A stretch of 64,000 bases of DNA from Daphnia carinata (Eukaryota; Arthropoda; Branchiopoda; Diplostraca; Daphniidae). The stretch is from contig NC_081334.1 in assembly GCF_022539665.2 (NCBI RefSeq), positions 5,302,424 to 5,366,423 on the forward strand, read 5' to 3'. Made by a program: the position numbers and the translations under genes. Positions 2,516 to 16,274 of this stretch are shown here, one piece after another. The notes beneath the pieces were generated by a model that saw nothing but the letters and a program-made list of their open reading frames with translations, was not told where the DNA came from and did no database searches. Numbering within the stretch: position 1 is the first letter of the stretch; each line of letters opens with the position of its first letter.

Positions 2516-5500
2516 CTGCAATAAGACGTTACGTTAAACAAAAAAAAATGAGTTAGTAATTAAAAAATAAACAAATAAACAAAAGAAACAAAAACAAAAT
2601 CCAGCCTACAAAAAAAAAGTATATTGCGAGTGTTAAAAACTCTCGACTGTTTTCTACAAACAGATAAAATGAGATTTTCTTTTTCTTACATTCCTAGGTT
2701 TTTTTTTTGGCGATTGAGAAATAAACAATAGAAACTCAGTTTGCGTTGTTTTTTCGATAACAGGTCATATCAGCACGTCATGGCCGTTCGCGTGACAAAC
2801 GACGAGGAAAAAATGTTGATTTACACTACTGTAACATTCCAAATTGCATCAACACTGAAAGAGAAAAAAAAAGAAAGACAACGATAGGCAGTTGAGATGA
2901 CGGGGATGTTCTAAGTTTGCCTGGCGTGACTGATCCCGTTATCATACAAGAATTATTATCCGAAAGATGGCCGCTCGTCTTGTCTGGCGCCTCCGTTCGC
3001 CCTTACGCATACCTAGTACTACCACGATAGCCGTTGGCTTCGTCATCAAGCAGATGCTACAATTCTTTTCAACATTCGGTACGGGAGTTATGCATTTCTC
3101 AAAATTAACAAAACCTCTATTGCGTAAACATCTCAGCATACGAATTATACCGTGACACAAACCGTCGGCATAATAAGTATCTTATAGATTTAAGTTACAC
3201 GAAAGGTTTCCAAGTGCTCTAATTCGATAACAACACGTCCCTGAAAGGATTCTCTCTGTCGGTTCAATACCAGCGCTAAATACAACAGCTCGAACTCCCA
3301 TTGCTGTATTGATCGGCCACTGTCGCTGCTTTCCCTTTTTGGCTCCACCGCGAGAAAATGAAAGTGAACGTACACATTACGCTATGGCACCTCGCTTTTC
3401 GTCAATATCGGAAATAAACGAAACGAGTGACGAAGAGTCCCTCAAAGTTGATAAGTTACGCCCCATAATTTAACGGGGAAATAAAGGTTAACTAAATAAC
3501 TTGATAGTTCCTTTTGTCCTATAAGAGGAAAAAAACACGCGTTCCTCTATGCAAATTCGTGAAAATGTATCATGCGGCGAACTGTACGAAAAGAAACGGT
3601 TCTGTGAGATACCTGATTGAACGTTACAAGATCCAAGTCCATTGTTTAGCCTTTTTTTACGAATCAGCTCCCGTTTCCAAGCAGGAAGACAAGAAATCTG
3701 TGCTTCTGCCTCGGTCGAGCCAATACACATATCAATACCCGCTGACTGGCCAACACAGTCGGGCGATGTTTGACATAACACTCCGTCCATTCTGATAACA
3801 CTGCGGTTTCTTTCCCTCCTTCTTACACTTCAAAACAGACGATTCACCACTTTCTGGAATGTTTCACGTAAACGAATTGAAATCTTTCTGCACACGCGGG
3901 AATAACTCCCCTTTCCAAAGTCTGAAACCAAACTGAAGGACAGCAACGGGACTTAAGCGAGTCTCAATGCAGCGCAGACGGAATGGACATTGTAAATGCA
4001 CGCATGACTGTTGCGGACAGGGCGTTCTCCCCGCGGTGTCCGTGGCGGCGGGAAGCATGGTGTCCATGAAGGCTAGGAACCTTTCGAGTGCATTGCCTCC
4101 TAAGAACGCCATGTGGGAAAGTCTTGGCTTCATAAACAAAGCTTTTACTTCACTACTTCATTACCCTTTTTTCTTTTTCTCTCTAATCACTTTTATTCGC
4201 CGTTCACAGATGTATAAAAGTTTTATATTAATTTGTGAACACTTGGTAAAATACGAACGGGCCATTGCAATCCTGAATTCGACCCTAGTATAGGCCAGGT
4301 GTCAGGAAATCTTATTTCCTTTCATATCCAGCCTTACTTGTTGTCTTGGCTCTTTAATGCATCAGCCAGGATTTTCTTTACATTCAAAAGGAGGTGGCAT
4401 CATTACATCATTACAGAAAAGCCATGCACATAAAGTAATTGTGTGCTACAGTGCTTAAAAAACTACTTGCCTGTTTAGCCTGGCTAATACGAAGGAAAAA
4501 GATTTTCTGAGTTAAAAAAAACCAAAAAAACAGCTCGACAAGCAAAAATCACCAATTGCTACTATGTTTGGCTTGCTTTAATTATTCTGGATCTTTTGTA
4601 CATGGAGGACGCTTCATTTTTTTAATGTGTGGTCCATTTGATGCAAGAAAGAAGTCAACAACCACTCTTTGACTTGATTCATCCAAGAATAACAAACATG
4701 AAACAAGCTCAAACAAACCAATCTTTGTTTCTCAATCTACCAAACGGAATAATTTAGCTGTCGGGTATCTATAAACTAAAACATATCAAACCTAACTATG
4801 CTATAATTTAAAATACGAGAACTGAAGCACTAGTCGCGCCCACCATAAAACAAGAATTCCAGTTTGCTCAAACTTAAAATTAAAATTTTTCACATGAATT
4901 TTACTTACCCAAGTTTGATGCCAAATACTATTTGTTTCACAGTACACATTCACACTGAATTTTAGGATAGAATAGAAGGCTTCTACTGGAATTTTCGTTG
5001 CACTTTTGACAGGCGAAAAGGCGCCATGACAGATGACAGGCCGTGCTGTTTTTTCCGCCCATCGGGTTAATAGTTAGCCAAGTCCAGGCGGCTGCGAGCA
5101 CAGCTAAAAGGGATTTGGATTCATCAACAATTAATTATTCCCCCTATAGCAAAACCGTCGTGTCAGTGGATGTTTTTTTTTTACTTACGGTATTCTTAGA
5201 ATCCTATTATGTGCACCGTGCTTTTTCCTATTTTTATTTATTTATTCATTTATTTCGTAATTGAGGCGTTTAAAGCATTCCTTGTAACGTCTCAGTTCTC
5301 GCAGTTAAAAGTGATTCCCACAGATGGCTGTATCTAAATTGGAAGGATGAGAAAAATTTTTTGGGTAACGGGCCGAAGGATATTATTGGCCCTCTCCTCT
5401 TCGATTTCCTATTGTGGAAGGTGAAGGAGAAATTTGTATCAGACGGGACGTGTCAAAGGGAAAAACAAAAATCATCACGAATCGCCATTTCTCTGTTTTC

Positions 5501-5532
5501 ACTATCCACTGGTGCCCACAGTCGACTTCAAA
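2516..5532. other. Intergenic / upstream intron sequence, no gene recognised
   Basis: This AT-rich stretch should hold the upstream intron(s) and 5' end of the minus-strand gene at 1-2515 and the promoter and 5' leader of the IRP gene that starts at 5533. A minus-strand frame at 3864-4139 opens with MFMKPRLSHMAFLGG and is GC-richer than its surroundings. It could be an upstream exon of the first gene, but no good donor in the right phase was found. No RNA gene or repeat was recognised. Confidence 0.4.
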
Positions 5533-8500
5533 ATGGAGAGCCGAGGTGATATTTTTAAAGATCTTGTTATCGTTCGCCCAATTATCGAAAATTCTGTTTT
5601 TCAGAAGGATCGAATCCCTACAATAATGTTAAATGTTCACTGTCTGTAAATGACAAGGAATATTATTACTTCAATCTCCGAAGCGTTGACCCAGGAAAAT
5701 ACGGTAATCAAGCTTAAGTTTTTTTTCAAGTTATGTGTCACCCTGGAACAATCTTGTTTTACATACCAAACTTCATTTATTTTCAGTATGTGTTATTAAC
5801 ATTCCATTGGTTCTTTACTCTAGATAAGTTGCCCTTTTCTATTCGTGTTTTGCTCGAATCTGGAGTTCGTAACTGTGATGGTTTTCATGTTACAAAAGAA
5901 GATGTGGAAAAAATCTATAATTGGGAGCTCCATCAAAAAAGTGAACAAGCCATAGAAGTGTCATTCAAGCCTTCAAGAGTTATTCTTCAAGATTTCACTG
6001 GGGTACCTGCCCTTGTTGATTTTGCTGCTATGAGAGATGCTGTAAATCAATTTGGAGGCAACCCTATGACTATCAACCCTATTTGCCCTGCTGATCTAGT
6101 GATTGATCATTCAGTTCAAGTTGACTTTGCACGCAGGTAAATATCTTTAATAAGACCTAGGTATCCTGAAGGTGCTATTTTGGCCTTCTGAATTGGTTTA
6201 ACTTATTTAGGGAAACATTCAATGATTTAACAGCTAAAGCATTGTTTTGGAATTTGTTTTGTACTCCATGAAAATGTGCTTTTCAATGGTTTAGCACTTA
6301 CAAATATTATTAGTGACAAAATTGAATGTTCTTGCAATGAGATTTCAGGGGCATTGTGGTGACTGCTGTGCTTTTCACATAGTTTTGGAGGGAATGTTGG
6401 TTAACTCCAATCTCCCATTGTCAAAATTACAGGAAATTTGCCCCTGAAATTCTATTGAAAACAATTGAATTTTGATTTTGTGAAGTTAACTGACACAACC
6501 AATCATGTGTGGTCACATTCAGTGCAAAAGGCACAGCAGCACCAACAGACTTCGGATCTTCGCCTACACTTCGTGTCGTAGATTTAGAAGACGCTTACGG
6601 TAGCTTGAGGTCTCACACAGCACGTCATCGCTTGCCTGTTTTCCTTAATCTGAAAGACGATTCTTCGAATATCCATCCGATCAGTGGGCGGGGCACTCCT
6701 CATCGGACTCGAGAGACGGAGCCTTCATTCAAGAACTCTTGTCATTCAATCGAACATCTACCGGCTGTTCCAAGAAATCTGAACGAAGGATCGGAATCTA
6801 GTGTCCCACGAAGACGTGTCTCGCCCGTTCGGGCTTTGTGCGGAGGCCAATGCGATGGCGTGACCTGCATGCTCTCCACAACGAGTGTCATCGAATCCCC
6901 GTGTCTTAGAGTCGAAGAAATCAAAGAAAATCTTGGTAAACGTTTGGGTTTGACAGCAATCCCGATCCCGGATCGTCTATGCCCGACTTTGATGGACCAA
7001 ATTTGCCCGTTCCATCACATTCCCTCTTTGTGGTTAGTTCCACGTTGTTCTTTTATGATATCACCTCCCGCCTCAAATGTATGTTCGTCAAAGCAGTCGA
7101 TGATCAATGGAGTCTAAAAAAAAGCGTACGTAAAAAATATCATGAACACCGAGCTTCAAGGCTGGAAAGTGTCCAGACAGATATTTGTGCGAAACTTTTC
7201 TGTTTTCCCCTTAGTTAACTGGCATGTTGTTATTAATTTCAAATATTTCTTGCGTTAAGCAGGAAAAGTTTTGATATGATGTCTAAAATTCTGTTTTTAA
7301 CGTTTTATATGACGGGAACTGATGCCTGTGTTATTAAGTTAGAAACTTCTTCTATTATTTCACATAGGTCAGATGCTTTGGATAAAAATCAAGATTTGGA
7401 GTTCGAGCGCAATAAGGAGCGTTTCGCGTTCTTGAAGGTACGTGCAGTTTTTGTTGCAAGGTTGTTCTTTTCACTCTCAAAACGTTTTCTCTCAATAGTG
7501 GGGAGCGCAGAACTTCAAAAATATGTTGGTTGTCCCTCCTGGTTCTGGAATCGTTCATCAAGTAAATTTGGAATATTTGGCTCGTGTTGTTTTTGACCAA
7601 GATGGTCTGCTCTACCCAGATTCAGTTGTCGGGACAGATTCGCACACAACAATGATTAATGGACTTGGCGTTGTAGGATGGGGAGTTGGCGGTATTGAGG
7701 CGGAAGCGGTCATGCTTGGTATTGTCAGTTGTAAAGTGAGCTTCCTACAATTTCATTTCCATATTTTTTTTTTTTTTATGTATAGGCCAAGCTATTTCAA
7801 TGGTACTCCCGAAGGTTGTTGGATATCGGATTTTCGGGCAGCTTAGTCAGTTAGCCACTTCAACTGACGTAGTCCTCACGGTACGTATTATGAAGTAAAT
7901 AATTTAACAATGCAATTGTCTAATTCATATTTTGTGTTACAGATCACGAAACATCTTCGTCAGGTTTGGTCCACATTTGTGATTGGTTTCCTGGTAACTT
8001 TTTAATAATTTGGGTGTAATACTTTGAAACAGGTTGGCGTGGTAGGAAAATTTGTAGAATTTTATGGGCCAGGCGTTACAGAACTCTCGATTGCCGATCG
8101 TACGAAATTTATTCCGTTTTATTAATTTTTTTCTTGGTTTAATATTTGGTTTATTGGGAAAATGATTTGTTTAGGTGCAACTATCAGTAACATGTGTCCT
8201 GAGTATGGAGCCACAGTTGGTTTCTTTCCGGTTGACGAGAAAACCATCGCTTATCTTAGACAAACAAGTAATTTTTTCTTTGTTATGCCTCCGCAAATTT
8301 GCACGCAAATGCCGAAACCAATTTTCCTTTTTTGTTAATTAATTTTTCTTTCTTTCTTTTTTTTAATTCTTTTTTTTTTTTTAATGTAGACCGCCCCGCT
8401 GAACAAATTGCTTACGTTGAATCGTATATGAAAGCAGCTGGCATGTTTAGGGATTTTAATAAGCACGACGAAGATCCTGTCTTTTCTGAAACGTACGAAC

Positions 8501-10759
8501 TTGACCTGAGTACAGTGGTCCCATCTCTCTCTGGTCCTAAGCGTCCCCAAGATCGAATTGCTCAATCAGATTTCAAGTTGGATTTCAACGAATGCCTGAG
8601 GAATAAGGTAGAGGCTTTTTTTTTTATTCGCGCCAAACAATTAAATTTTCATTTCAATTACGCCGATCAGGTTGGCTTCAAGGGGTTTGGCATAGCAGAA
8701 GAAAAATTGGCCACAGCCGCACCGTTTGAGTACGAAGGAGCAACGTATACCCTTCGACATGGCTCAGTGGTTATTGCTGCCATAACCAGTTGTACTAATA
8801 CATCAAATCCATCAGTAATGCTTGGTGCTGGTAAGCAAAGAATTAAAAAAAAAAATCTTTAATGCATAGAATGGATGAACAAATTTGGCTTGCGTATGCA
8901 GGACTATTAGCCAAAAAAGCTGTGGAAGCTGGATTAGAAGTGGCACCATACATAAAGACTTCGTTATCTCCCGGAAGCGGTGTCGTTACGTATTACCTTA
9001 AAGAATCGGGAGTTATTCCAGCATTGGAAAAACTCGGATTCAACATTGTCGGGGTAAAAAATGTTGATGACCTACGATACCATTGACACCCATACATGTA
9101 TTTTTTATTGTTGCAGTATGGCTGTATGACTTGTATTGGGAATAGCGGTCCGCTGCCCGACGCCGTTGTTGAAGCTATTGAAAAGAATGACCTAGTGTGC
9201 TGTGGCATACTGTCTGGAAACCGAAATTTTGAAGGCAGAATCCACCCAAATACTCGGGCTAACTATTTAGCCTCTCCTCTCTTGGTTGTAGCCTATGCCA
9301 TTGCAGGTAAATTCCGTTGTGTCCCAGAAATTTACGTGTTTTCTTAGTAGTATTTGAAAACAAAAACAGAAAACGACGAAACCAAATTTATTTCGACAAC
9401 GTTTTATTAAATCCTCAGGTACGGTAGATATCGACTTTGAAACCGAGCCGCTTGGCTATTCTGCAGATAAGAAGCCCGTCTTTTTGCGAGACATCTACCC
9501 AACCCGCAAAGAAATACAGGCTGTCGAACAACAGTTTGTGATTCCTGCAATGTTTCAACATGTCTATTCGCGCATCACGATAGGCAGTGACTCGTGGAAT
9601 AAGCTCGAATCCCCAAAATGCAATCTATATCCGTGGGATGACAATTCAACCTATATTAAGAGACCTCCATTTTTTGACAACATGACTAAAGACATTCCAG
9701 CATTAGAATCTATTAAAGAAGCCCATGTTCTACTTCTTTTAGGAGATTCAGTTACTACTGACCATATTTCACCGGCTGGCAGTATTGCACGCAATAGCCC
9801 TGCTGCTCGATATTTGGCTTCTCACGGGTAAATTAGTTTCCACTTTAGCCATCATTTGAAGGAGGCTTGTAATGTTTTCGAATTTATTTCCTTTAAAGGT
9901 TATCTCCTCGTGAATTTAATTCGTATGGGGCGCGTCGTGGAAATGACGAAATAATGGCACGTGGTACTTTTGCCAACATTCGTCTCATCAATTATTTGGT
10001 GTCAAAACCTGGTCCGAGAACCATCCACATCCCATCAGGGGAAGAAATGGACATTTTCGATGCAGCCGAGCGCTATCGTAAGGAAGGACATGATTTGATC
10101 GTAATAGCTGGAAAAGAATACGGCACTGGCTCCTCCCGAGATTGGGCAGCTAAAGGTCCCTGGAAACTTGGAGTGACAGGTATTACAACGTAGAGTTAAA
10201 TGTCTTCAACATAAAAAACGAGTTTTATTGCATTGTGATAGCGGTTATTGCCGAATCTTTTGAACGGATCCATCGATCAAATTTGGTTGGAATGGGTATC
10301 TTACCATTGCAGTTTCTTGAAGGACAAAATCCCAAAAGTCTTGGTTTGACGGGAAAAGAAAAATTTACCATCAATATTCCCCAAGATATTAAGCCAGGAC
10401 AAGTAATTGATATCCAGGTAATTTTCGTTTTTTTTTTGTGATTATTATTTATTTATTTATTATTATTTTAAAAGATACGCTCTCAATTACGATACAACAT
10501 TTTTTGTCTTAATACTAGAATAGTCGATAAGAATTGTGTGGAACATTTAGAATACTTTGTATCGATTCTTAAATTGCATTAACAGGTTGCTGAAGGTAGC
10601 AGTTTCCAGGCACAAGTGAGAATTGATACCGATGTAGAACTTGCCTATGTCAGGAACAAAGGTATGAAATAGCATAAAAATCATTAAAAATTTTGATTTT
10701 AGTATTTTCTTCTTTAACCACCAGGTATTCTGAACTATATGGTTAGAAAGCTAGCCTAA
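5533..10759 (+). CDS. IRP1 (ACO1): Iron regulatory protein 1 / cytosolic aconitase
   Basis: This is the bifunctional cytosolic protein that is an aconitase with a 4Fe-4S cluster and an IRE-binding repressor or stabiliser without it. Exons: 5533-5545, 5605-5703, 5824-6136, 7368-7437, 7499-7718, 7786-7880, 7943-7963, 8033-8099, 8175-8267, 8390-8607, 8671-8830, 8902-9053, 9117-9306, 9419-9827, 9899-10179, 10242-10417, 10586-10661, 10725-10759. All phases join and give 895 aa, against about 889 in vertebrate IRP1. The cluster cysteines are visible in [10 protein letters not shown] and [14 protein letters not shown]. Substrate/RNA-binding arginines lie in [19 protein letters not shown] and [12 protein letters not shown]. 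The end is [11 protein letters not shown]. The start, MESR joined to EGSNPY, is the only ATG whose short exon splices in phase. One exon is only 21 nt (ITKHLRQ). Intron 3 is 1.2 kb and holds a further in-frame exon, listed separately. Confidence 0.95.
6523..7032 (+). CDS. Predicted cassette exon of the IRP gene (170 codons, IRP2-like insert)
   Basis: Inside the third IRP intron lies a 510-nt segment with acceptor TCACATTCAG and donor GTG/GTTAGT. It is open throughout and symmetric (phase 2 in, phase 2 out), so inclusion or skipping both keep frame. Included, it would follow VDFAR and precede SDALDKNQ, giving a 1065-aa isoform. The encoded insert is Cys-rich: [26 protein letters not shown] and [12 protein letters not shown]. 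This is the site of the 73-residue insert of vertebrate IRP2. As I recall that protein, its insert also ends in a CPFH motif, 11 residues before KNQ, and CPFH to KNQ here is also 11 residues. By my arithmetic, a chance open frame of 170 codons has probability about 3 in 10,000. No transcript evidence is available here. Confidence 0.65.
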
Positions 10760-12794
10760 AGTGAGCTTTGCCTACAAAAGAAATATATTCTGATGAATTA
10801 TGTTGTTGGTTTTCCAATGGGGATAAATTGCTCACTTTTATTTTATTTTCTTCAGCTATTGTTATATCTATATGGTTACAATATACATGAAAAGATAATT
10901 ATCATTACAGGTCCAATGTGCAGATTCATATGCTCTTTTCACATTTGTTTTTCAAGTTTTTATAGGCATTTAATGATTTTGCGGTAACATTATACAATCG
11001 CACAGACGGCCAAAGGAAAAACCCTTCGTAAAATTTGCACAAAAACGGTTTCGTCTGCCTTTACTTGCGTTTATGAAACTTAGTAAAAACTATTTTCTAT
11101 GACAATGAGAGCAAAAGCTCGAAGGATGCACGATGCGCAGAATAGTGTTGGTAATACAAAGCCACTTCACTTGTTCTAAAGCAAACATAGCCTGCCTTTT
11201 CTTAGGGACTTTGAGTGGGTTATTCAGCTACGTTTGTAGGATTCCAAAATGAATAAAAAAATGGTATCGACGTCTGCCACTCAAAGTATCTGCAAGGAAC
11301 AATTCAATTCAGTAGACAATTCTGAAAATGGTTCAAAGTTTGCCAAGGGTAATTGTCAAAATGATCTTGCACGTGCCGTGAACGTTGTTACATGAAAGAC
11401 TACAAGTTTTGGAATACGAATATCGTGCGAGGTGGAAAAACTCAGCTTATTACTTAACATATGAATTTCTATAACGTGTCTCAGGTCATTCAATCCCCGG
11501 TTAAAGGAACAAATGATCTTTAGTATGCTTTAGAAAATCAAACGAAAGAAATTCAAGGTAAGCCAAAGAAATCAAACCTGTGTTTCCTCTTTTGTTGTTG
11601 TCGGTTGTATTAACTCGTGGAATACGGCTACTTTTTCCCAGATTGGTTAGCTTTGCACCTAGAGCCACATGTCCTCACTTCTGCGTAAGCAAAATGACGG
11701 GGATTCGTCTTGCTTGGTATGGAGTTAATATTTTCTTCTAATCTTTCGTTATTGTTTCTACTCTTACTAAATCGCTCGTTTCTACTCGGCGTGCTACTCG
11801 TTTTTTGTTTTCGCAATAATACGCTCGAATAAAACCTGCTAAGCTCTACTCTCTCCTAAACTAGACGTATAACTCTTTTCCCAACCACTAGGTTGCAGCG
11901 CTGTCTCCCTCAACTTACGTACTTTGAAAAGAAGGGAAAGGAGGTATGGTACGGAGGGAGATAGCGTTCCTTCAGGCTTTCTAGATTCACTGTACATTAG
12001 TCGCTCAGTGCGAGTAAACGTCTGACGCGTTGGGTTTGGATTTCTCGTTTTCGGTAAGTCAACATTTTTGGTGATTTATCATTTTCCTGTTTAAGATTAA
12101 GATTTATCATGCAAAACTCGTATCCTACGCAAGCAAAACGTTACGTGTAGTTCTTCTCGACAACATACGTACTGCAATGTGGTTGTGATACATGGCCATC
12201 GGACTTCCGATGGCTCCGGCAAAAAACGGTCGCCGTGGCCCAGATTTGAAAGCACATGGCCGGCTCTCGAAGTCGGCAAACTCGCCTCTCTGAAACCTCA
12301 CTCAGTTTGTTTCGTGTTTTCCACTTGTAAACGGATAGTTATTAAAAATTGTCATTCCAAATTAGCATAGACAATTTGTTTTTTTTTTCTGTTTATTCTT
12401 AATTCTCGAATTGGCGGGGAAATTTTATTGAAAGTTCGTTTGGAAGAGGTAGGGAAGGGAGATCTAAAGCGTCTAGCGAGGTTCTCATGAAAACATGGCG
12501 GGTCGGCGGGCTCATCTTGTCGCCTCGTATGAGGCCCCCCTCATCAACGACCGCGCACAGTTTAGCTAACGTCGTAGTTCGTTTAAACTTTTGAAATAAT
12601 AACGTCGTTGATTTGGTTGTGATTTACCAACAGTAATTTTTGTATTAACATTAATTATCAGAATGATTTTTTATTTTTGGTATAAAATCATTTTTTTACA
12701 ATTTCCTCTGCCCCTTAGGTTAAGCTGAATTGAAAACGTTAGATTATACAATGATTATTGTTGTTTTGAATATTATTAGATCTAGTGGGTTTCC
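10760..12794. other. Intergenic region with the UBF 5' leader
   Basis: No protein gene was recognised between the IRP stop and about 12000. A likely non-coding leader exon of the next gene ends at 12053 (TTTTCG/GTAAGT). Its partner acceptor is TATTATTAG at 12771-12779, 15 bases before the UBF start codon, so a leader intron of about 726 bp is inferred. Sequence around 11990-12040 is the probable promoter and transcription start. The small open frames at 12097-12370 lie inside that intron and show no family resemblance. Confidence 0.4.
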
Positions 12795-15700
12795 ATGGCA
12801 AACGAAAAAAAGGCTAAAAATAAAAATCGTGAGGATAAAATTGCGGTACCGGCATCTTCAACCATGGCGCGAAAAGCTAAAGGTATACCGACATAGATAG
12901 TTACTATTTACTAAATACCATGTTTTCCACTAACCATTTTTTTTTTTTTTTGTTTCTTCTTTTTTTCAGCTTCCAAGAAAATTGAAGTACCTCCGAGTCC
13001 CCCAGAAAATGAACAACCATTTTCTCCATCAGGTACATTTACTTTTTTGCGTGTTTGCGATCGAATTAGATATTGTTTTTATATGTGTATTTTTTATATT
13101 ACAGATGAAGATGACGAAGACAGAGAAGTAGATGAAGAGGAAGAGAAAGGGAAAGAAGATATCGATGAAGGAGTTGTTGACGAAGAAGACGAAGATGAAG
13201 GCGAAGAGGAAGACGTAGATGAAGACGCAGATGTAAATGCAGATGAAGATGAAATTGAAGAAGATAAAAACGGAGCTCCCTTAAGTAAAACTGACGTACA
13301 TTTTAGAACCTATTTCATAATAATTTTTGTTTTGTAATGACAGGTTGGCCAAAAAGCGACACTTTAGATCTTGTGGAACGTATTCGGAAAGCTTGCCCAA
13401 AAGACGATGCGATGAAGTACGATTCTCGCGTAAACCACGTTGATTGGGAAGCCGTAAGTTTTTCGAGATAATTCGTTACAAATGTTAGTGTTGCCGCATT
13501 TTCAAATTTAAAAAACCTTTTTATTTTATTCTAGATTAAGTTTGGGGAATATTCTGCTGACCAGTGTAAAACTCGTTGGCTGGACATTCAAGTAAGTAAA
13601 ACAAAAGTCGTGTGATCCGTCAAAATCTTTTTCATAAGGGTTATTTTTAGGCTCATCTAAGACACTATCGGCTACTTAGTGAAGTTTTAACAGATGCTGT
13701 GACATGGGTAGATAGGCCATGGCATAATTTCAACAAAGGGGGAAAAGTACGTATTTCTTAACACAGAAGAATTATTTGAACTCTAATTAGCAAACTTTAT
13801 GTCGTCTTCCAGAATAATCAGAAGCATCCTGATCAGCCCAAAAAACCCCTTACATCTTACATGCTGTTTTATATGGACCAAAAAGATTCAATTTTGGAGA
13901 AGCAGCCAGGTCTTGGAATGGTATTGTGAATTGTGTTGTTATTTTTTTATAAGTTTTACTTATGGTATAATAATTGGTATAATAATTGCAGACGGAACTG
14001 AGCAAGATCATTGCAAAAATGTATCACGAACTTAATGACCGCAAGAAACAGAAATATGCTGAAATGGCTGAAAAAGAAAAAGAAGCATACCTGGAAAAAA
14101 TGAAGAAGTTCACGTAAAGTCGATCAACGTTTTAATATTTTTCGATCAATTTATTTCTATATTATTTCTCTATTTTAGGGAGGCACACCCTGACTATGTC
14201 GTTCCCAAATCTAAGCAAAGTTCCAAGCCAGTTCCACCAAAACTACCCACGCCCTTTAAATTGTTTAGCGATGACAAAATGGCAAAGTTGTTGGCGCAAG
14301 GAATGACAGTAACTGAGGCTAAGTAAGACATTGATTTGATTTTTTCTTTTAATTGTATTTCATTTCGAAAAACATCTAAAGAAATGTTTTGCTCCACAGA
14401 GAACGTTGCAGAGAGGCCTATAAGGAATTGAAGGATAAGCAAAAATTGAAATGGATTTATCAAGCTCTAGAGCATGAAATCAAGTACAACGTAAGTCTCA
14501 TCGTCGTATTTGAAGTATCTTCGTAACAACCATTAATGCTCATTTTGATAGGAGGAGATGGAAAACTTTAAAGCGAAGTACCCTGACGTGGAAGCTTCAG
14601 CCAAGAAACCGAGTCTTCTTACCAAAGATGAACTGCAGATTAAACATAAGTAATTTCAGCTCGGCTAGTTTGACAGGAGAAAGCATATCCTAATTTTTCT
14701 TTTTTTTTTTAATATAAGACATGAAGGAAAACCAGATAAGCCACCCAATTCTGGATACAGTTTGTTTTCGAAAAAACTGCTAAGTAGCAACGCGCTCAAG
14801 CAGTTTGAATCAAAGGAGAGGATGACAGAAATTTCACGGCTTTGGAAAGAACTCAGTGATGATGAAAAAGCAGCGTACAACGCCAAAGCCACACAGGTAA
14901 TCATTTAAAAAATAATAGTAATTTGTCTTAGGACTTCAATATTCTCTCAATTATTACAGTTGAACCACTTGTACAAGATGAAATATGCTTCTTATCTTGA
15001 GACACTTACACCTGAGCAAAGAAATGCAGAATTAATAAGTTCTGTAAGCAAGAATATAAAAAGAGTTTCTGGTAAAAAAGGAGAAGAAGAGGTAATAAGG
15101 ATATGATGAAATTTAACTGGCAATTTATAGGAAGTCTTAAAATTTCGTATTCGTAGCCGGCAGACAAAAAAATCAAAATTAGTCTACCACATGGTTTGGA
15201 GCTCTCAGACGCAGAGAGCGATGATGATGTTGGCAGTGACGAGGATGACTTTGAACTTCCTCCGAAAACAGCAATCCAAAAACCTAACTCTTCGCTGCAA
15301 ATGTTTTGCGATACCAACATGGATAAGTACACCACCAAACACCCCAAACTGACAAAACAGGAACTAACCAGATTGATGGCCAAAGAATTCGCTAAATTAA
15401 GCGAAGAGAAAAAGAAAATTTATGGAAACATGGCACAGAAATCCAAAAATGAAATGCCGTCTTCCACCAAAAAGGCAGCAAACACGGCCTCAAAGGCTAA
15501 GACAGCGAAAGCAACAGCAACTTCAAAAAAGGCAGCCGCAAAATCAGTCACCACTGCTACCGTAAAATCCCTCGAACCAACCGTTTCCCCGTCTAAAAAA
15601 TCCACGGCTAAAAGCGAAGTACAAGCTGCCAAGTCGCCTTCAAAAATTAAACCATCCTTAAATGCCAACGCAAAATCCTCGACACAAAAGGAATCTTCAA

Positions 15701-16274
15701 AGACACCAAAAGTCCCATTGTGGGCAGCGAATCAAGTGCTGTTCAATACCGAAAAGACGAAGGAACCACCGAAAGTACCAGAGTAAGTATACAATGATAT
15801 CGTGGTACAATGGTTAAGTATAGGAACTTTATTTTCTTTTTAACATATCATTAGGAGCGCTGCGGCATACTATGCGTATACTCAACATTCCAAGGACGGA
15901 GATGTTAGCGCAGCTGAAATTGACACTTTGTGGGGAAAGGTGCCAGAGAAGCAAAAGAATAAATGTATAGAGGAGCATAAGAAAAAGCAGAAAGAATACG
16001 TAGCGAATTTCGAAAAGTTTGTTCGGGTAAACAAACAGCTATTTCATAATAAGAATTCATTAATTTATTGAATCTTTAATAGTCGTTGAACACAGAGGAA
16101 CTTAAAGCTTATCGGGCGTTCATGAAGAAACGCGAACAGGCTCAGAAAGCGGCCAAAGATGCTAAAACGGACGAAAGTTCTGACGAAGAAGCTGATCCGG
16201 GTAGTTCAAATGAAGAAGAAGGAAGTGCTGCAAGCACAGACGATGAACAGCAAAGGTCTTCGGAGGAAGACTGA
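12795..16274 (+). CDS. UBTF: UBF-type nucleolar transcription factor with HMG boxes
   Basis: UBF binds rDNA in the nucleolus and opens it for RNA polymerase I. Sixteen exons: 12795-12882, 12970-13032, 13105-13284, 13344-13453, 13535-13591, 13651-13746, 13813-13920, 13992-14113, 14179-14322, 14400-14490, 14552-14649, 14719-14896, 14960-15091, 15157-15782, 15855-16026, 16083-16274. They join in frame to 818 aa (human about 764). The N-terminal part has a Glu/Asp tract, then HMG boxes seen at KHPDQPKKPLTSYMLFYMD, PPKLPTPFKLFSDDKM, GKPDKPPNSGYSLFSKKLL, NSSLQMFCDTNMDKY and SAAAYYAYTQHSKDG. The segment LTKDELQIKHKHEGKPDKPP matches the UBF signature before box 3. The tail is acidic and Ser-rich (SSDEEADPGSSNEEEGSA), like the UBF C-terminus. 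A Lys/Ala/Ser-rich linker of about 100 residues in exon 14 is longer than I expect. Confidence 0.9.

Follow-up and report, generated by a model that had tools for sequence, protein, structure and literature searches.

An exon of an IRP1-type gene in Daphnia carinata is a well-supported homologue of the vertebrate IRP2 insert

The 73-residue insert of vertebrate iron regulatory protein (IRP) 2 is called unique to IRP2 in passages of PMC2854138, PMC4056636, and PMC2267205, where its function is given as unclear or disputed (in the part of PMC4056636 concerned, as not clear). The insert has been proposed as an iron or heme sensor in mammals, a disputed proposal; PMC2854138, in the portion dealing with the insert, describes it as unstructured and as having another effect on tumour growth. 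In excerpts of the comparative literature, IRP2 is missing in an ark clam (PMC8947174) and sponges have an IRP1 homologue only (PMC7034838). Full-text literature searches, with most subscription papers outside their coverage, returned no publication on the occurrence of the insert in invertebrates. Here we analysed a 64,000-nucleotide (nt) stretch of the Daphnia carinata genome (contig NC_081334.1, forward-strand positions 5,302,424 to 5,366,423), referred to throughout as the window, which contains an IRP/cytosolic aconitase gene with an additional, predicted cassette exon. The novel feature of this locus is that an insert of IRP2 type forms a predicted exon in a gene of IRP1 type.

A sequence-only reading of the window had described a 510-nt, open, phase-symmetric exon in intron 3 of this gene, and its coordinates, junctions, and frame all proved right when the gene was reconstructed from the raw sequence. 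The features of the gene, numbered along the window, are as follows.

5533 to 10759, plus strand: coding span of the IRP/cytosolic aconitase gene, with ATG at 5533 and stop TAA at 10757 to 10759; 18 exons plus the cassette
5824 to 6136, plus strand: exon 3, ending in VDFAR; its donor is common to both forms
6137 to 6522, plus strand: intron 5′ of the cassette, 386 nt
6523 to 7032, plus strand: cassette exon, 510 nt, of symmetric phase, 170 net codons; well-supported homologue of the 73-residue insert of vertebrate IRP2
6839 to 6904, plus strand: Cys cluster of the insert, closing in SPC; every Cys of the cluster is kept in Daphnia sinensis
6959 to 7032, plus strand: conserved 3′ end of the insert with two Cys-Pro sites; CPFH, six residues, and the exon end recur in human IRP2 and in the other long forms listed, the spider having CPMH
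7033 to 7367, plus strand: intron 3′ of the cassette, 335 nt
7368 to 7437, plus strand: exon 4

Intron 3 spans 6137 to 7367 and holds the cassette between an AG and a GT. The last position of exon 3 is 6136 (GCAG/gtaaat) and the first of exon 4 is 7368 (acatag/GTCA), and the cassette junctions read cattcag/TGCA (6523) and TGTG/gttagt (7032). The 510 nt hold no stop in the IRP frame and preserve that frame, and the predicted proteins are 895 aa with the cassette skipped and 1065 aa with it included. The insertion site lies in domain 1 between VDFxR and KNQ, which is, as had been claimed, the site of the vertebrate IRP2 insert. The 895-aa protein was matched by phmmer over most of its length to IRP1 chains 2b3x and 3sn2 and to IRP2 chain 6vcd; we take the first two to be vertebrate IRP1/cytosolic aconitase. 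A full-length aconitase core and C-terminal domain were identified on the D. sinensis orthologue by PF00330, PF00694, and TIGR01341, and in the window gene by the IRP1/IRP2 chain matches. The iron-sulfur (Fe-S) cluster cysteine motifs SCTNTS and GYGCMTC are present in both the long and the short form. The earlier label "IRP2-like" fits the insert and does not fit the core, which keeps the Fe-S cysteine motifs of IRP1/aconitase.

The cassette was next examined as coding sequence. It lies inside a 207-codon stop-to-stop frame; among 5000 base-shuffled copies of the intron, 8 had a plus-frame open run of at least 170 codons, and among 20000 shuffled cassettes 8 kept the IRP frame open. The G+C content is 50% in the cassette versus 34 to 35% in the flanking intron, and when scored by the gene's own codon usage the IRP frame was the best of the six (−0.01 versus −0.15 to −0.27). 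No Pfam domain was detected in the insert at E ≤ 1. The cassette was found once in the 108-Mb genome by DNA search, and a repeated or transposed exon was rejected on this absence of a second copy. An aconitase-family search of the genome gave two loci, the IRP gene and one on C1 that is taken to be mitochondrial aconitase; a hidden IRP2 paralogue was likewise rejected, as there was no third aconitase locus in this search and the tree described below puts the gene apart from IRP2.

The insert is conserved in a related species. Of 307 candidates in a protein search with the insert and short flanks (residues 139 to 325), a single one passed E ≤ 1: "putative aconitate hydratase 1" of D. sinensis, which is 1065 aa long and carries an insert of the same length. 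Window and D. sinensis align without gaps, with 145 of 171 residues identical in the insert (85%) and 863 of 894 in the remainder. By this comparison the insert evolves faster than the core, with its length and cysteines held: D. sinensis retains the two Cys-Pro sites and 7 of the 7 cysteines of the insert.

The 3′ end of the insert was compared with human IRP2. A Cys-rich exon ending in ICPFH, 11 residues before KNQ, had been described from the letters alone and is read directly in the window, where the KNQ is that of SDALDKNQ. The same reading had given the vertebrate IRP2 insert as ending in LCPFH at this distance from KNQ, and this was confirmed in human IRP2 chain 6vcd_A, which reads ILCPFHLQPVPEPETVLKNQ with CPFH 11 residues before KNQ. 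Unaided, phmmer set the end of the Daphnia insert on LCPFHLQPVPE of 6vcd_A, which precedes PETVLKNQ, and the chance of CPFH at one fixed place is about 4 × 10−6 from the insert's own composition. By count along the 6vcd_A chain the CPFH cysteine is residue 201. In a passage of PMC2267205, C201 is put forward as a site for heme, and C168, C174, and C178 as sites for iron. Daphnia also has a Cys cluster upstream of CPFH, kept in D. sinensis, although its spacing is unlike that of human C168/C174/C178.

Insert-bearing IRPs of other animals were sought with residues 288 to 347 (the CPFH end plus the start of the core), which gave 700 candidates, 694 of them at E ≤ 1. The survey of phyla rests on the best 120 of these 694 matches, here called the listed proteins, and is no census, since long forms without CPxH would rank low or fall outside the list. 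CP[FM]H upstream of KN[QL] was found in 13 listed proteins, which are the top 13 of the 120: those of D. sinensis, Saccoglossus (a truncated entry), Petrolisthes, Amphiura, Nucella, Babylonia, Holothuria, two Amblyomma, Rhipicephalus, Batillaria, Stegodyphus, and lamprey. The 12 from outside Daphnia represent a hemichordate, echinoderms, gastropods, ticks, a spider, a crab, and lamprey. The spacing from the motif to KN[QL] is exactly 11 residues in 13/13, the spider motif being CPMH. At the 5′ end of the insert, P[ND]PGGG, a motif absent from the query, was found in 10 of the 12 non-Daphnia long forms as well as in human IRP2, with a variant, DPGGGG, in the crab; NAPNPGGG is identical letter for letter in Holothuria and human IRP2. 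This common motif provides, together with the Holothuria/human identity, the strongest evidence for one origin. The crab Petrolisthes links Daphnia to the other long forms: its IPIQDEVCPFHERISEWSDALQKNQ aligns with the end of the Daphnia insert, and crab and Daphnia have IPIxD..CP and SDALxKNQ in common.

There is no insert, and a linker of 6 to 13 residues, in 91 of the 120 listed proteins. In a sponge IRP there are 6 additional residues but CPxH is absent; these data therefore take the insert no deeper than bilaterians. A third search, with the Holothuria insert as query, returned only itself among 3 candidates. Eleven listed fish IRP1 entries were parsed as long (P0054-P0057, P0064-P0068, P0070, and P0084; P0058 was unparsed); these belong to carp, Polypterus, and Erpetoichthys and have inserts without CPxH at or near the same site, which seems to tolerate insertion repeatedly, errors in the fish gene models being possible. 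Two close Cys-Pro units, DRLCP and DQICP, were also observed in the Daphnia insert at about 6959 to 7012, and the DxxCP unit looks doubled there; a second CP occurs in only two of the other 12 listed long forms, Nucella and Rhipicephalus, and lies further upstream in them.

Profile alignment of the insert to these other inserts, which the sequence-only reading had proposed, gave a divided result, in that the anchored tail scored well and the unanchored whole loop was outscored by a shuffle (see below). The anchored profile, the clearer of the two, covered 19 residues of 12 non-Daphnia tails, with columns set by eye, and its score rests mostly on CPFH; the Daphnia tail reached 26.9 bits, a value attained by 0 of 1,000,000 random tails of insert composition, and every other stretch of the insert scored −1.2 or less.

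To examine gene history, 25 cores stripped of the insert were placed in a maximum-likelihood tree; 22 came from the 120 listed proteins, and the other three were those of the window, human IRP1, and human IRP2. Five vertebrate rows (IRP1, IRP2, and lamprey) were split from 20 invertebrate rows by a branch of 100/99. The Daphnia long forms (window and D. sinensis) grouped with the short form of D. pulicaria, and the gastropod long forms (Nucella, Babylonia, and Batillaria) with the short form of Littorina. As the window core grouped with Daphnia short forms and arthropods, apart from vertebrate IRP2, the Daphnia gene is, judged by this tree, an IRP with an IRP2-type insert and no IRP2 orthologue. 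Lamprey was placed with IRP2 (98/95), which means that it adds no independent evidence for an insert before the duplication. With a root among the invertebrates, which is what the species tree implies, the insert would belong to the unduplicated gene and vertebrate IRP1 would have lost it. That the insert is older than vertebrates, as had been suggested, gained support from the same 3′ end in deuterostomes, gastropods, chelicerates, and a crab, from the 5′ motif in 10 of 12, and from the split in the tree. There is good support both for homology between the cassette and the insert of vertebrate IRP2 and for a pre-vertebrate origin. On the best reading, the "IRP2-specific" insert would be an IRP exon that dates back to early bilaterians and that several lineages can skip; vertebrate IRP2 would have retained it and vertebrate IRP1 lost it.

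From isoform labels, short relatives, and gene anatomy we infer that the exon may be alternatively spliced. A D. pulicaria protein labelled "isoform X2" is 895 aa and free of the insert. Four further short proteins, P0015-P0018, derive from contigs of 2.9 to 3.6 kb in which the reading frame is complete or nearly so (P0016 is without a start); these contigs are hence probably transcripts, and P0015 and P0018 group with Daphnia in the core tree. The labels X2 or X3 are also carried by the long forms of Babylonia, Amphiura, Amblyomma americanum, and lamprey, and by the short form of Littorina, which implies several forms per gene. The introns flanking the cassette (386 and 335 nt) are longer than the gene's other 16 introns (59 to 168 nt).

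The product of the gene is most likely a functional IRP that has ferritin as a target, as suggested by the Fe-S motifs of the core and by a hairpin resembling an iron-responsive element (IRE) before a ferritin gene. This CAGUGU hairpin stands 84 nt before a ferritin ATG and scored 26.2 bits (E 0.067), which is under the Rfam cut-off of 34, but its genomic setting speaks for it. Its position is given below.

L009, about 1434 to 1518 (genome C2), minus strand: ferritin gene with the IRE-like hairpin

Within positions 5000 to 11500 of the window no Rfam IRE was found at E ≤ 1; two matches fell under their gathering scores and were taken as chance. An IRE at the cassette acceptor (CAG/TGC, 6520 to 6525, which has the IRE-loop letters) was considered and set aside as chance, no stem being seen by eye.

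We consider it probable that the cassette is the crustacean orthologue of the IRP2 insert, carried by an unduplicated IRP1/aconitase-type gene and giving a long form that responds to heme or redox state. Under this explanation, skipping the cassette would yield a standard bifunctional IRP1 of 895 aa that senses iron through its Fe-S cluster only, and inclusion would yield the 1065-aa form, in which domain 1 bears an extended Cys-rich loop that is probably disordered and places CPFH beside the core. In the long form, the Cys and His of CPFH and the Cys cluster could serve as ligands or oxidation sites, and the loop may alter the stability or partners of the protein; heme or redox sensing is most likely the role of this form. 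The ancestral bilaterian IRP gene would have carried the exon, and after the vertebrate duplication IRP2 would have kept it and IRP1 lost it, such that a splice choice probably became two genes. The exon, its conservation in a second Daphnia species, and the motifs in common are read directly in the sequences; we infer regulated splicing, heme/redox sensing, and this duplication history alike. In its broadest version, in which the bilaterian ancestor made IRP1-like and IRP2-like proteins from one IRP gene by one exon, the duplication fixed both, and invertebrates still run Fe-S and heme/redox sensors from one locus by splicing, we judge the proposal about as likely as not.

A number of observations weigh against this explanation. 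Regarding homology, the survey query held ICPFH, so the CPFH counts and the top ranking of the 13 proteins are partly query-selected, and 11 of the 12 rows of the anchored profile (all but human) were retrieved with Daphnia's tail. An unanchored hidden Markov model of 13 non-Daphnia inserts ranked the window insert second of 2,002 sequences (2,000 shuffles plus the two Daphnia inserts), with one shuffle higher; the loops differ in length and are of low complexity, and the body of the loop has diverged beyond recognition, with signal in the ends only. P[ND]PGGG is absent from the inserts of the window and D. sinensis, and lamprey is also without it. At 170 aa the Daphnia insert is longer than most, the other listed inserts being 32 to 114 aa and that of the crab 278. 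The core tree is without an outgroup and unrooted, and human IRP2 (and the sponge) have long branches. Regarding splicing, (i) no single species had both a long and a short form among the proteins examined; (ii) the cassette sites are rather weak: of the 17 constitutive donors 5 score lower, as do 2 of the 17 acceptors; (iii) unused GT and AG sites in the intron outscore the cassette sites, so that the small matrix fails to single them out; and (iv) the codon score of the cassette (−0.01) is below that of the one core exon scored (0.12). Regarding function, a seven-position heme-regulatory motif pattern, as defined in a section of PMC3904948, fits 0 of 13 invertebrate long forms, the window included, and fits only human IRP2 (ILCPFHL) and lamprey (SLCPFHL), which weakens heme sensing as the ancestral role. 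According to passages of PMC2267205 and PMC2854138, mammalian mutants without the insert are still degraded, with opposing data cited in PMC2267205. A genome search gave no hemerythrin domain (FBXL5), though such an exon-wise search may miss one.

The alternative that fares best, to which we would give roughly one chance in three, is one in which the insert acts as a flexible spacer or a loop for protein interactions and senses neither heme nor redox state, with CPFH kept for packing or for partners. The failure of the strict heme-motif pattern in all 13 invertebrate long forms favors it, as does the D. sinensis long-form model, in which the insert has a predicted local distance difference test (pLDDT) value of mostly 23 to 40 and almost no secondary structure; that model is poor overall (mean pLDDT 54.7 from 15 sequences), too poor for fold claims. 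However, loops of 32 to 278 aa all retain CP and His, which looks more like ligand chemistry than a spacer (the motif also guided retrieval), and 7/7 insert cysteines are kept in D. sinensis. It is unlikely that the exon is homologous to the IRP2 insert yet constitutive in Daphnia, the short form being a minor product or a gap in annotation: the one protein found for D. sinensis is a long form, but the D. pulicaria isoform X2 is short, with a label that implies at least 2 forms, and P0015-P0018 are short and probably transcripts, the two in the tree grouping with Daphnia. Convergence, in which unrelated loops gained CP motifs at one permissive site, appears very improbable. Unrelated inserts do occur there, as in the 11 listed fish IRP1 entries without CPxH, and the long forms of other animals were themselves found by a search with the CPFH end; yet the spacing is fixed in every listed case, a second motif lies at the opposite end and outside the query, and NAPNPGGG of human is identical in Holothuria. 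A cryptic non-functional exon or open-intron artefact, which the weak splice sites and higher-scoring intron decoys might suggest, is scarcely credible given 85% identity over 171 gap-free residues, the retention of every Cys in D. sinensis, and motifs that cross phyla.

Two other parts of the window were noted. Downstream of the IRP gene, at about 12796 to 16071 on the plus strand, is a gene with an acidic stretch and HMG-box exons (Pfam HMG_box over the cut-off at 15157 to 15783 and just below it at 14669 to 14905), which probably encodes a UBF-type nucleolar HMG-box protein. Upstream, positions 265 to 2109 hold several long overlapping open frames on both strands, the longest of which (1438 to 2106) had no Pfam match.

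The occurrence of the insert across bilaterian phyla provides comparative data, according to which CPFH and its fixed distance from the core matter and the length of the loop does not. It also suggests that an older splice choice was divided between IRP1 and IRP2 in vertebrates, a proposal testable in Daphnia, ticks, and snails, as is whether heme, hypoxia, or iron shifts the splicing; haemoglobin is induced by hypoxia in Daphnia. Compared with the insert of vertebrate IRP2 (IREB2), also called 73d or the iron-dependent degradation domain (6vcd_A), the Daphnia insert occupies the same place in domain 1 and has CPFH 11 aa before KNQ, whereas it differs in length (170 versus 73 aa), in the spacing of the Cys cluster upstream, in the absence of P[ND]PGGG, in having two CP sites, and in leaving the heme-motif pattern unmatched; moreover, it is an optional-looking exon in an IRP1-type gene and not part of a separate paralogue. 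With vertebrate IRP1 (2b3x and 3sn2) the Daphnia gene shares the core, the SCTN and GCMTC motifs, and the linker of the short form, but those chains are insert-free and the Daphnia gene has the cassette. The other listed invertebrate long forms have CP[FM]H at the same spacing; unlike Daphnia, 10 of these 11 keep the 5′ P[ND]PGGG and the crab has DPGGGG, with lengths from 32 to 278 aa.
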